A stretch of DNA of 47,751 nucleotides, from the IMG/VR virus record IMGVR_UViG_3300030106_002217, positions 1-47,751 of that record; one strand, given 5' to 3'. A program made the translations under genes and the position numbers. Source of the stretch: a virus. Of this stretch, positions 3,126 to 11,103 are shown one piece after another (the first letter of the stretch is position 1; the number at the start of each line of letters is the position of its first letter). The notes beneath the pieces were generated by a model, which was given only the letters and a program-made list of their open reading frames with translations, was not told where the DNA came from and made no database searches.

Positions 3126-3484
3126 TGGCAGTAATGATTAGATGCATAGAGAATGAGGGAACGTATGAGCGTTCCCACAAAACGTTTTTTGATTTGTTAT
3201 ATTTAAAAAAGAAAAAAACTAAACTTAATGGCAAAACTTGGACCGAAAATATTATTGTAAATAGCGAAGGTAAAGAGATTAAAGATAAAGATTTACTCAG
3301 GCTAACTTATGCAAATTTTAAGGTTTTTGAAAAAGAAGGATACGATGATTTTTTCATGGTCAGAGAATTTATTGACGACGACGGCAATTGTCAGCATGGT
3401 CCTGAGATAGATGTTTATATTGATCGAAAAGACCATGTAGATGAAAGTGACATGAAAGTTTTAAGACGCTGGGGCTTTGCATAA
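3125..3484 (+). CDS. Hypothetical protein
   Basis: A 119-residue protein with no recognised domain. A basic segment (LYLKKKKTKLNGK) is followed by a mixed alpha/beta region and an acidic stretch (REFIDDDGN, DVYIDRKDHVDESD). It is coupled by single-base overlaps to both neighbours (TAATG at each end), so it is probably made together with the cysteine-rich protein that follows. No signal peptide or membrane helix. Confidence 0.65.
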   Translation: MAVMIRCIENEGTYERSHKTFFDLLYLKKKKTKLNGKTWTENIIVNSEGKEIKDKDLLRLTYANFKVFEKEGYDDFFMVREFIDDDGNCQHGPEIDVYIDRKDHVDESDMKVLRRWGFA

Positions 3485-4182
3485 TGTTAAAATTAGTAAA
3501 CAAATCAACAGCAAAAAAAACTACAAATTGCGCTGTTACATATAGAGCTGGTGGCCAAGATAAGTTTGCCACTTGCCCTATTAGTTGCAGCTTAAAACCT
3601 GATGCTTTAGCTGGCGCCCATAAAATAGATACTGAATATTTAAATGCTGTATCTGATGCGGTCCCAGCTGAAGGCGTAAGCTTTACATATTCTCATTTTA
3701 ATCCTAGGTATTGGAAGCATAAATTAAAGCTTGGCAAAACCACAATTAATTATTCAGCTAAAAATTTAACTGATCTTTTATTGCACAGCTTCGTACCAGC
3801 TGTGATAAATGTTAAAGAAACATTTTGGAATAATAAAAAATCACAAAAAATTTCAGGTAAACAAATTGTCAGATGCCCAGCTGAATATTTAAGTATTGAT
3901 TGTAGTACTTGCGGTAATGGTAAACCTTTATGTTCACGGCTGGATAGATTATATGCAATTGGCTTTACTGATCATGGCGCTTATAAGAAAAAAGCCGGTA
4001 ATGAAAATGAAAACGGCGGTTGTTATGCAACTGGCGGTAATGTTAATTTGCATTGGAAAGCCACGGCATTAAGTAAAGATAAACAATCCGATAGTAAAAA
4101 GCTTATTAGCTGGTCTAAAGCATTACCAGCTGGAACAGTTTTAAGGCACCATATAGCCGGAGATTTTGGAAAAATAGAATAA
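3484..4182 (+). CDS. Cysteine-rich phage protein (DUF7227/GP88-like) with blocks in an unusual order
   Basis: A 232-residue protein with Cys at about 16, 31, 35, 131, 140, 143, 150 and 180. As I recall phage families of the DUF7227/GP88 type, an N-terminal TCPxxC motif is followed by a GCYA..G block, then RHHxxGDF, then a D..YL..A segment leading to YTH, then CPAE..CxxCG and IGF..HG. Here the pieces are present but the GGCYATGG and LRHHIAGDFGK block lies at the extreme C-terminus (about 171-232) instead of after residue 45. Joining AGDFGK to IDTEYLNAV would restore the usual order. AAAATAGA occurs at both putative joints (3622-3629 and 4171-4178). Biochemical function is unknown. The permuted reading depends on recalled families. 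Confidence 0.55.
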   Translation: MLKLVNKSTAKKTTNCAVTYRAGGQDKFATCPISCSLKPDALAGAHKIDTEYLNAVSDAVPAEGVSFTYSHFNPRYWKHKLKLGKTTINYSAKNLTDLLLHSFVPAVINVKETFWNNKKSQKISGKQIVRCPAEYLSIDCSTCGNGKPLCSRLDRLYAIGFTDHGAYKKKAGNENENGGCYATGGNVNLHWKATALSKDKQSDSKKLISWSKALPAGTVLRHHIAGDFGKIE

Positions 4183-4271: not shown

Positions 4272-5429
4272 GTGAGAAATTTAGAAAATGAAAATAGAAC
4301 TTTAGAATCTTTATGCACTGAGATCTTAGAGTTAAATAGAAAAAAACAAGATTATATTGCACCGACAAACCAGCTTCAGGTGAAGACCGTAGTTAATGAC
4401 GACGGCCCAAATACCACACAGATAATTATGGAAGCTGATCACGGAGAGAAAACAAAAATCTTGAATGCAAATGACGTATGTTTAGATCAGATGAATGTTA
4501 AAAACGGCTTGGATACCAAGGTAGGCCGTAGGCTTCAAAATAATTATCCTAAGGAATATGATCAATTAACAAATGCTATTTTAGAAAAAGAGCCTTGTAA
4601 ACGTATGATCAGATCATTTAATTATCCTGAAACAACCGGGCAGTACATGAATAATGTTATTGGTACGGCTAGAGCGTATTTATCGGATAGATTTAAAACT
4701 TTTGATAATTCTGATTTATTAGAGTCTGCATTACCTACACTTGCCGAATCAGGCGCGTGCTGGAAAATTGTCAATTATGCTAATACTGATAAAAAACTTT
4801 ACATTAGATTAAAAAGTGAAATACAAACCGCCGACGCTGGCGTCGGAGACCATATGGCTAATGGCCTATTTATTTCTAATTCTGAAGTAGGTTTTTCAAG
4901 CATTGCAACTGGTATGACATTATGGACCTTAGCTTGTTTAAACGGTATGCAAACCGAAAAAATCACGCGTAAGGCCCATATAACGTCCGCGAGGAATGGG
5001 GATAATTGGAATATATTAACCGATGAGACCAAGGACGCCGACAACCAGCTTTTAAAGCTTCAGATGAGAGATATTATAGCTTCATATGGTAGCCGTGAAG
5101 AGTTTGATAATCAGGTCGAATTATTTAGGAAGGCCAAAGAGGATAAAATATCCACTGATAAAAATATGAACGACGCTGTAGAGGATTTAGGAAAGGTTAT
5201 GGCCTTATCTAAAAAAGAGACTTCCAGCGTGCTTGAAGGCCTTTTAAATACTATTGGACAATCCGGTTATGAACAAGGCCAGCCGATTAATAAGGCTACA
5301 TTAGTTAATGCTTGCACTGCGGTAGGTAATAAGGCCCAGCCGGACGATGTCGACTTTTGGCAAAGACTAGGTGGTAAGGTTTTAAACCTTAATAAAAATG
5401 ACTGGAATAGAGTTGCCTTGGCCAGCTAA
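4272..5429 (+). CDS. DUF932-like phage protein
   Basis: A 385-residue protein starting at GTG with AAGGAG eight bases upstream. The central part (GARAYLSDRFK near 130; GLFISNSEVGFSSI near 200; TLWTLACLNGM near 220) matches the core of the DUF932 family found in phages and plasmids, whose biochemical role is unknown. The C-terminal third is helical and charged. It is the only gene in its cassette, enclosed by a leader and a terminator on each side, suggesting independently controlled expression. No catalytic motif is evident. The family call is from pattern memory. Confidence 0.6.
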   Translation: MRNLENENRTLESLCTEILELNRKKQDYIAPTNQLQVKTVVNDDGPNTTQIIMEADHGEKTKILNANDVCLDQMNVKNGLDTKVGRRLQNNYPKEYDQLTNAILEKEPCKRMIRSFNYPETTGQYMNNVIGTARAYLSDRFKTFDNSDLLESALPTLAESGACWKIVNYANTDKKLYIRLKSEIQTADAGVGDHMANGLFISNSEVGFSSIATGMTLWTLACLNGMQTEKITRKAHITSARNGDNWNILTDETKDADNQLLKLQMRDIIASYGSREEFDNQVELFRKAKEDKISTDKNMNDAVEDLGKVMALSKKETSSVLEGLLNTIGQSGYEQGQPINKATLVNACTAVGNKAQPDDVDFWQRLGGKVLNLNKNDWNRVALAS

Positions 5430-8618: not shown

Positions 8619-9020
8619 ATGGCTGATTCTGTAGTAAAAAATGCAAATAAGGAACAATATGACGAAAATGCTATCTTTGATCGTTTATTAGATCAAACAC
8701 TTGAACCTGAGGTTGTAGATTTGCGCGAAGAACAGTATGAAGGCATGGCACCGCCTCTTTTTGATGTTGATGTGCGTGATATTACTTATGAACCACCAAC
8801 AGAACTACCAATGGAATCAGAAGGCATTCGTTCTATAGGCTTAGAAATGGGCGGCAACGCGGGTATTGAGACACTTAAACAAACGACTATACAGCTACAA
8901 GAGATACCGCCTGACAGAAACATGACTGTTCTGCAAAGAATGATGAAACAAGCAGGGGCACCGGCACAGGACCCACGGCTCTTGGCTCAAGTATCACAAG
9001 TCTTAGGAAGAGATGTCTGA
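8619..9020 (+). CDS. Hypothetical acidic protein of the head module
   Basis: A 133-residue acidic protein (MADSVVKNANKEQYDENAIF...) with many Glu, Asp and Pro residues and few hydrophobic stretches, probably largely disordered, ending in a short helix (DPRLLAQVSQVLGRDV). It lies between the large terminase and the polyvalent-type protein and overlaps the latter by eight bases. A virion or assembly role is likely from position only. Confidence 0.65.
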   Translation: MADSVVKNANKEQYDENAIFDRLLDQTLEPEVVDLREEQYEGMAPPLFDVDVRDITYEPPTELPMESEGIRSIGLEMGGNAGIETLKQTTIQLQEIPPDRNMTVLQRMMKQAGAPAQDPRLLAQVSQVLGRDV

Positions 9021-11103
9021 ACAAACTTATAGAGACGTTCTTTCCCGATTAGAGGAAAAGGACAAGAAACCTATGACAATAGATGAGGCGTATGACGCCC
9101 TGTCTTTCCTACCCGGCACAGGTGAAACTATAGCAGCTTATGAACTACCGGGTGTTTTATCTCAAGCTAAAACTTTAATGCAGGACCCAGACGCTTTGAA
9201 GGCGTTGGCAGGTTTAGGACTAGGAGCATTAGGCACAGCTGCGGTTGCTCCGGGTATAGGGCCTTTAGCGAGAGGAGCTAAAAAAGGACTTGAGGGTTTT
9301 ATACCTTATTTACAACCAAAACTTGCTCCAGCTGGCGGTCCCGACACATCTAAAGTATTGATGTCTGGTGACGACGGTGATGATCTTTTCTCTTTACCCC
9401 CTGCGAGTGGAACCTATGAGCCTGGACAGAAGAAGGTTATCAAAGGTTTAAACCAAGAGATATACAAACTAACCGATAAGAGTTTATTTAATCCTGCAAA
9501 AAAAGCAGGACGTAAACTTGTAATTGTATCTTGTAGCCAGAAAAAATGTCCTGACGTAGGCAATATGAAAGCATTTGACAGATACATGGGTTCTGTTTTT
9601 CAGTCTTTAAAAAAGCAAGGCGTACCAGAAGATGTGGATGTCGCTATATTGTCCGCGAAACACGGTCTTATATCAAGAGACACACCAATCAAAAATTATG
9701 ATTTAAAGATGTCATCAGAGATTGGTGAAAAATTTAAAAGCGATCCTATACAAATGAACAGAATGATTAATACAATGACCGGGTATGATGATGTTATTGT
9801 TCAAGGCGGCCCTTTATACAAAGATGTTATAAGAGCTGCGGCAGGCAAGGGAGATATTAATTTAACTGAGGTACCACCGGGTAAGGGCATTGGGACCCAG
9901 CGTTCGGATCTTGTTAAGCTTATAAAAGGTGAAGATGTAAGTAAGAAAGTCTCTGATCAAGATTATGCTGATCAGCTGAGAGATATGAAGATAAATCCTG
10001 TATTTAGTTATCAATACGAACCTCTTCTTAATAAGTTTGATAAAGTGTTAATACCGGGGCTAGACAGGTTTAATTTAAGGGATATATTAAAAGCCGGTGA
10101 AAACTTAAAAGGTGCTGAAAAGAAAAGAGCAATATCTGACAAAGCTGACGAAATTAAATTTATTGTAAACCAGCATTTAGATCAGGCAAAAAAAGATTTA
10201 GCCTATGCTGTTCCAAAAAGAGATGCTTCATCCTCCAACAGTGTAAATAGATATTTTCAGTTTCAAGTACAACGATTACAAAATCAAATAACAAATTCTG
10301 AAAATTTAATGAGAGATTTAAATACTATACAAGAAAATATATTGGGCAACTCATTTAATAAGTCAAAAACTTTAGCACAGTCTCAGAATTACAAAGGCGG
10401 TATATTTGCTAAAATAGACACACCTGTATATCACTTTTCAATTAATGTTGGCGGTAGTGCCAGAAAACCAGCTTTTAGCAAATTTGATAAATCTAAGTTA
10501 GGGTTTTATGATTTTGGTCCTCATGTGGCTTCTTCGCCAAAAGGTGCACAAGATAGATATGTAAGTCAAGTAGGGGGTGTAAGGGATAAAGACGGTGAAA
10601 TAATTTTAAAATCTGACGCTGAAGCAAAGGGTGCGACCTTTCCTTTGTTAGCAGATCTGAGCAAACCCTTTAATAATCCAAAAACAGGAAAACCTTTTAC
10701 AGAGGATGACTTAATAAATTATAAAGTAGAAAAAATTTCTGAAATTTTAAATAAACCTTTTACGAGAGACGATTTACTCTTAGAAACTGACAATTTTAGC
10801 GTTGATACAATTAGGGACGCGGTAAATAAAATATCTTTTAATTTAGCAAAAGATGGTTTTACTCATGTCCCTTATGTAAACGCTTACGAAGATGTAGGCG
10901 AACTATCTTATGAAATGTTAATTGATAGACCCATGAACAGTACAAAAGTTTTACAGGGTCAGTTTGCTAAAAAAGATCCGTCCGCGGCTAACGATCCAGA
11001 CTTTATGAAAGCTGAAGGCGGCGTGGTTGAAATGAAAGATAAAGCTGTTAATATGTACAGAGATACACAAGGTATTGAACCATTTATTAAATATATGGTA
11101 TAG
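9013..11103 (+). CDS. Polyvalent-type protein: DUF6884-like domain plus ADP-ribosyltransferase-like domain
   Basis: A 696-residue protein. Residues about 167-290 carry SCSQKK (173-178), ILSAKHGLI (212-220) and GGPLYKDVIR (265-274), a pattern I associate with DUF6884/YaaA-type proteins. Residues about 470-650 read PVYHFS, FDKSKLG, GPHVASSPKGAQDRY, PLLADLSKPF, DGFTHVPYVNAYED and then SYEMLI, the layout of ADP-ribosyltransferase-like domains in phage polyvalent proteins: an aromatic-His strand, a GxHxxxSP..A..RY region and a late Y.N..E. A Gly/Ala-rich segment near 60-85 precedes them. The C-terminus (FMKAEGGVVEMKDKAV) resembles virion-protein tails. It sits between terminase and portal, so it may be packaged and injected. 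The ribosyltransferase call is moderate; catalysis is unproven. Confidence 0.55.
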   Translation: MSEQTYRDVLSRLEEKDKKPMTIDEAYDALSFLPGTGETIAAYELPGVLSQAKTLMQDPDALKALAGLGLGALGTAAVAPGIGPLARGAKKGLEGFIPYLQPKLAPAGGPDTSKVLMSGDDGDDLFSLPPASGTYEPGQKKVIKGLNQEIYKLTDKSLFNPAKKAGRKLVIVSCSQKKCPDVGNMKAFDRYMGSVFQSLKKQGVPEDVDVAILSAKHGLISRDTPIKNYDLKMSSEIGEKFKSDPIQMNRMINTMTGYDDVIVQGGPLYKDVIRAAAGKGDINLTEVPPGKGIGTQRSDLVKLIKGEDVSKKVSDQDYADQLRDMKINPVFSYQYEPLLNKFDKVLIPGLDRFNLRDILKAGENLKGAEKKRAISDKADEIKFIVNQHLDQAKKDLAYAVPKRDASSSNSVNRYFQFQVQRLQNQITNSENLMRDLNTIQENILGNSFNKSKTLAQSQNYKGGIFAKIDTPVYHFSINVGGSARKPAFSKFDKSKLGFYDFGPHVASSPKGAQDRYVSQVGGVRDKDGEIILKSDAEAKGATFPLLADLSKPFNNPKTGKPFTEDDLINYKVEKISEILNKPFTRDDLLLETDNFSVDTIRDAVNKISFNLAKDGFTHVPYVNAYEDVGELSYEMLIDRPMNSTKVLQGQFAKKDPSAANDPDFMKAEGGVVEMKDKAVNMYRDTQGIEPFIKYMV

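Follow-up and report, generated by a model that had tools for sequence, protein, structure and literature searches.

A permuted subfamily of the phage protein family DUF7227 with a divided cysteine motif

The forward-strand gene at positions 3484-4182 of the virus sequence analysed here encodes a 232-residue protein that belongs to a permuted subfamily within DUF7227, a phage protein family already known. Canonical members carry three sequence blocks in the order A-C-B, whereas this protein carries them as A-B-C, an assignment that rests on its translation, Pfam matching and block-order scoring. We consider it likely that the subfamily is old and stably inherited and that it arose once, and its members are probably iron-sulfur proteins in which the barrel and its cysteine sites would be rebuilt. 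The window, meaning the whole stretch of DNA analysed (47,751 bases out of a 77,651-base virus record), also contains the tailed-phage genes for terminase large subunit, portal, virion structural protein, DNA polymerase and primase. A 696-residue protein with a DUF6884 match (residues 170-296) is encoded at 9013-11103, between the terminase and portal genes.

Block A (3484-3624) comprises the N-terminal strands and the TCPISC motif, which supplies C31 and C35 of a three-cysteine set. It resembles the start of canonical DUF7227 (hhalign, canonical positions 8-40, E 3.7e-9); searched alone, these 47 residues gave no Pfam or PHROG match. Block B and its linker (3625-4014) run through the motifs IDTEYL, FTYSHF, CPAE, CSTCG, LC and HG and hold a four-cysteine set (C131, C140, C143 and C150). 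On its own, the middle segment of 120 residues corresponds to positions 92-212 of the Pfam model PF23872 (E 1.5e-11); in hhalign, block B of the permuted profile corresponds to canonical positions 95-223 (E 5.1e-29). Block C (4015-4179) extends from GGCYATGG to LRHHIAGDFGK and carries C180, the third cysteine of the three-cysteine set, together with the RHH..GD motif. The C-terminal 65 residues alone match PF23872 positions 35-85 (E 2.4e-8), and block C of the permuted profile matches canonical positions 39-89 in hhalign (E 2.4e-15), so that the block lying last in the window protein is the second block of the canonical order. All three blocks, the C-terminal one included, thus match the canonical DUF7227 profile separately.

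The original prediction held that this gene encodes a permuted DUF7227/GP88-like protein and that moving block C between A and B would recreate the family order; both claims were borne out by the block-wise matches and by matches of the reordered protein. The window protein passes the Pfam DUF7227 model with 81.6 bits against a cut-off of 27, but the hit comes in two stretches that are exchanged relative to the profile (residues 45-172 correspond to profile positions 89-218), rather than following the full model colinearly as A-C-B. Because of this swap we file it as a member of a permuted subfamily and not as a canonical DUF7227 protein. By comparison, the canonical members PaP1 gp135 and those of Curvibacter phage P26059A and Roseobacter phage CRP-345 give a colinear Pfam match in a single piece. 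Profile-profile comparison of 29 permuted with 44 canonical sequences led to the same result. The unmodified A-B-C form could be aligned without a break only when the canonical profile was doubled in tandem (positions 8-314 of 456, E 1.3e-39), which is the signature of a permutation, and the version reordered to A-C-B aligned with the canonical profile from end to end (hhalign, E 2.3e-46). When all six block orders were scored against the canonical HMM, A-C-B was best in 30/30 permuted proteins tested, with a mean gain over the native order of 52 bits; the window protein scored 95.2 bits as A-C-B and 47.5 bits in its native order.

Searches beyond DUF7227 added little. GP88 (PF17338), a distant relative with the order A-C-B, did not match the window protein at E <= 1, and neither an NCBIfam search nor a plasmid search gave a match. 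PADLOC returned a single 15-bit REase_II match, which was absent from the two relatives tested (P0002 and P0005) and is therefore taken as chance. A literature search on DUF7227 and PF17338, which was not exhaustive, found no paper.

Seven cysteines are invariant in the permuted and canonical alignments alike, and the window protein has all of them along with the RHx(x)xGD motif; CPxxC and GGC[YF] occur in 137/137 permuted proteins. Canonical proteins such as Pseudomonas phage PaP1 gp135 thus share with the window type the three blocks, the seven cysteines, RHx(x)xGD, a Y(T/S)H motif and a similar length. They differ in block order and in the spacing between the second and third cysteines, which is 7-10 in canonical proteins as against 142-164 in permuted ones. 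The permutation therefore divides the family cysteine motif, leaving CX3C at the N-terminus and the third cysteine about 147 residues downstream rather than 7. Neither arrangement is the CX3CX2C motif of radical SAM enzymes, the third cysteine lying too far on in both. Some radical SAM enzymes deviate from CX3CX2C, so the mismatch lowers the case for membership without excluding it.

Predicted structures suggest how the two orders could be reconciled. AlphaFold2 models of a permuted and a canonical protein were confident (mean pLDDT 90.6 and 95.9, respectively), and after block C was moved their secondary-structure elements corresponded mostly one to one. The permuted model retains only short turns where the canonical one has helix 120-131, and its last helix is shorter. 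The canonical model follows the order beta1, cysteine loop, alpha1, beta2 (ending in GD), alpha2, beta3, and as modelled its fold is a TIM-like partial barrel, perhaps radical-SAM-like. Its best VIA matches were EpeE (8ai3; Z 6.7, 4.4 A over 151 residues) and viperin (5vsl; Z 6.1, 3.9 A over 156), both radical SAM (beta-alpha)6 partial barrels that are TIM-like and have an N-terminal cysteine loop, as the canonical model does. However, other TIM barrels score close behind (Z 5-6), and kinship with radical SAM proteins is thus not established. EpeE and viperin are also unlike DUF7227 in that Z reaches only 6-7, no sequence match links them, and the permuted form has a split cysteine motif. No radical SAM Pfam match was found, and a PDB sequence search with the permuted and canonical profiles returned nothing meaningful.

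The permuted model reached a Z of at most 2.6 against the radical SAM fold in a sequential alignment, and a structure search of the PDB found no good match for it, a miss that does not imply a new fold. Its closest BFVD model was A0A6J5N836, a DUF7227 protein of an uncultured Caudovirales phage that is 41% identical and matches from end to end in predicted structure with TM 0.92. This protein is catalogued simply as DUF7227; since the match is sequential over the full length, it presumably has the same block order as the window protein. Other DUF7227-type BFVD models gave TM of about 0.5 at 7 A, the outcome to be expected when a permuted protein is put through an aligner that follows chain order, and a 168-residue DUF7227-type model fits the permuted model at 2.8 A over 113 columns.

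We suggest that block C, which comprises the third cysteine, the RHx(x)xGD strand and a stretch of helix, shifted behind block B without displacing CX3C or the two N-terminal strands, and that the permuted product most likely folds into the same partial barrel. The joined loops would all sit at one end of the barrel, and the shortened last helix of the permuted model would allow the chain to re-enter. With the fold retained, the third cysteine is predicted to return to the same place in space, such that the three-cysteine site would be rebuilt from C31, C35 and C180 and the four-cysteine site from C131, C140, C143 and C150. The protein is probably an iron-sulfur protein and perhaps a radical-SAM-like enzyme, which would act in the course of phage infection. 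The more specific proposal, that a radical-SAM-like enzyme here keeps its catalysis although the permutation has distributed its cluster-binding cysteine motif over both ends of the chain, we regard as possible but doubtful.

A competing reading, to which we give a substantial though minority weight, is that the subfamily consists of zinc-binding or other structural cysteine proteins rather than iron-sulfur enzymes. The middling fold scores, with no tie to radical SAM families at the level of sequence, are what it would predict. It accounts less readily for two conserved sets of cysteines (three and four) on what is modelled as a TIM-like barrel, or for the conserved GD motif ending the strand that follows the cysteine helix. 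Two cysteine sets and GD on such a barrel look, in our reading, like a radical SAM core to which a further cluster has been added.

Trees were built from reordered whole proteins and from block B alone, a block left intact by either order. In both trees, one branch separates the complete permuted set from the remaining proteins. In the whole-protein tree SH-aLRT was 95 for the canonical side, but the permuted side reached no more than 51 against GP88; the block B tree gave 98. The branch that separates the two groups is long (2.17), and a single origin is therefore favoured, not proven. The rearrangement is thus old and, so far as these trees show, happened once, a single ancient origin of the permuted group being the favoured interpretation.

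The direction of the change depends on the root, which is set by the distant GP88 outgroup. The canonical relative P0003 matches GP88 colinearly, and the GP88-type proteins L192 and L193 carry TCP..C, CYGN and LGDF motifs. Because GP88 has the order A-C-B, this is most likely the ancestral arrangement. The reverse polarity, with A-B-C ancestral within DUF7227 and the canonical order derived, gains some room from so remote an outgroup and from the diversity of the permuted group itself. Yet it would require an additional change, given that GP88 is a separate Pfam family sharing A-C-B colinearly with canonical DUF7227, and we judge it improbable. The usual route to permutations of this kind is tandem duplication followed by loss, and duplication then deletion is the most plausible origin of the permuted gene. 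In a one-time event, the gene would have been duplicated in tandem, the two copies would have fused, first to second, and the surplus segments would then have been lost (A-C-B/A-C-B to A-B-C).

The A-B-C order is widespread. Across 328 loci we distinguished 137 distinct A-B-C proteins and 96 distinct A-C-B proteins, and every relative examined at about 39% to 95% identity kept the A-B-C order. Two profile scans of IMG/VR gave 338 and 572 confirmed stretches, the best 80 of each being examined; the larger figure is a lower bound for the number of IMG/VR stretches with a relative of the permuted profile. At 22 IMG/VR loci of 69-95% identity the whole protein was present in the same order, with one (L022) stopping just before the C-terminus at a contig end. 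One phage record, DSL-LC04, was seen to have this order in a collection of 50,697. Seven loci come from bacterial MAG contigs; PF23872 is rare in the approximately 780 bacterial genomes searched, and the very few matches indicate that the family is mainly viral. Apart from truncations at contig ends (L079 and L255), no intermediates (A-C-B-C, or B-C without A) were found among the 328 loci, which were sampled by searches with each type, so that rare intermediates may be missed. No alternative order occurred at the same place among the contigs examined. The same order in more than a hundred distinct relatives identifies an old, stable rearrangement rather than a sequencing error or a genetic switch, and it contradicts the earlier notion of a local event in one gene. 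One relative (L017:5001-5744) carries some 16 additional residues, approximately SLVPRKKDLSCLKNIS, ahead of the RCPAEY motif; the sequence near this insertion may be frameshifted or replaced.

The original prediction had also pointed to AAAATAGA, an 8-bp direct repeat at 3622-3629 and 4171-4178 on the forward strand, as the site at which the blocks had been joined. Both copies are present, near the A/B junction and near the gene end, a position that could speak for a programmed or recent rearrangement of a single phage gene. The repeat occurs eight times in the window, five on the forward strand (the others at 4291, 10411 and 15623) and three on the reverse, and the open reading frame contains 25 repeated 8-mers, compared with a mean of 12 (range 2-25) in codon shuffles. 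Being common in the window and not above the chance level of repeats, it is not informative, and the pair is a coincidence of AT-rich DNA. Three same-order relatives (L016, L018 and L042) do not have the repeat and a fourth (L001) has a single copy; it is missing from 71%-identical relatives with the A-B-C order. A search near the gene for longer repeats, whether direct or inverted, turned up only weak AT-rich pairs, none of which joins both sites. With a single order in all relatives examined, down to about 39% identity, and no conserved recombination site, we reject the repeat as a joining site and find a programmed or recent rearrangement highly improbable. Of the earlier interpretation, the permutation therefore stands and this mechanism falls.

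Least credible of all is an assembly or sequencing artefact, for which one could cite a contig (L023) whose hybrid gene joins a permuted N-terminus to a GP88 body, since A-B-C recurs across numerous independent metagenomes as well as the genome of Phage DSL-LC04, and that hybrid is itself a scaffold misjoin. The contig, IMGVR_UViG_3300030202_001885 (L023/L344), begins with the 5' part of a GP88 gene, followed by 10 Ns, 174 bases of permuted phage and the GP88 body. The Ns and the bases of another phage lie inside the GP88 gene (L344, 345-528) and create a false hybrid open reading frame. Recombination at its TCPKTC motif was ruled out by the 10 Ns and by the GP88 gene's own start upstream, and the misjoin has no evolutionary meaning.

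The permuted and canonical genes also differ in their surroundings. Directly downstream of the permuted gene lies a gene for a DUF932 protein (PF06067, phrog_1362; 4272-5429, forward strand), a neighbour found in both the window and DSL-LC04. Among loci with enough flank, a DUF932 gene lay within 700 bp downstream on the same strand at 46/110 distinct permuted loci and at 0/83 canonical ones, counts made with a profile built from the neighbours of permuted genes, by which divergent DUF932 genes near canonical genes could be missed. The absence of an adjacent DUF932 gene thus sets the canonical proteins apart in the sampled loci. This contrast raises the possibility that permuted proteins act with a partner of their own.

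A persistent natural permutation that splits a presumed metal-binding motif across a virus gene subfamily is unusual. The DUF7227 label assigned by profile annotation conceals the change of order, and searches by motif would overlook the third cysteine of the permuted proteins. If the motif does belong to a radical-SAM-like enzyme that keeps its catalysis, searches for contiguous motifs would miss such split-motif enzymes. Permutations of this kind cleanly test which connections a barrel can do without.
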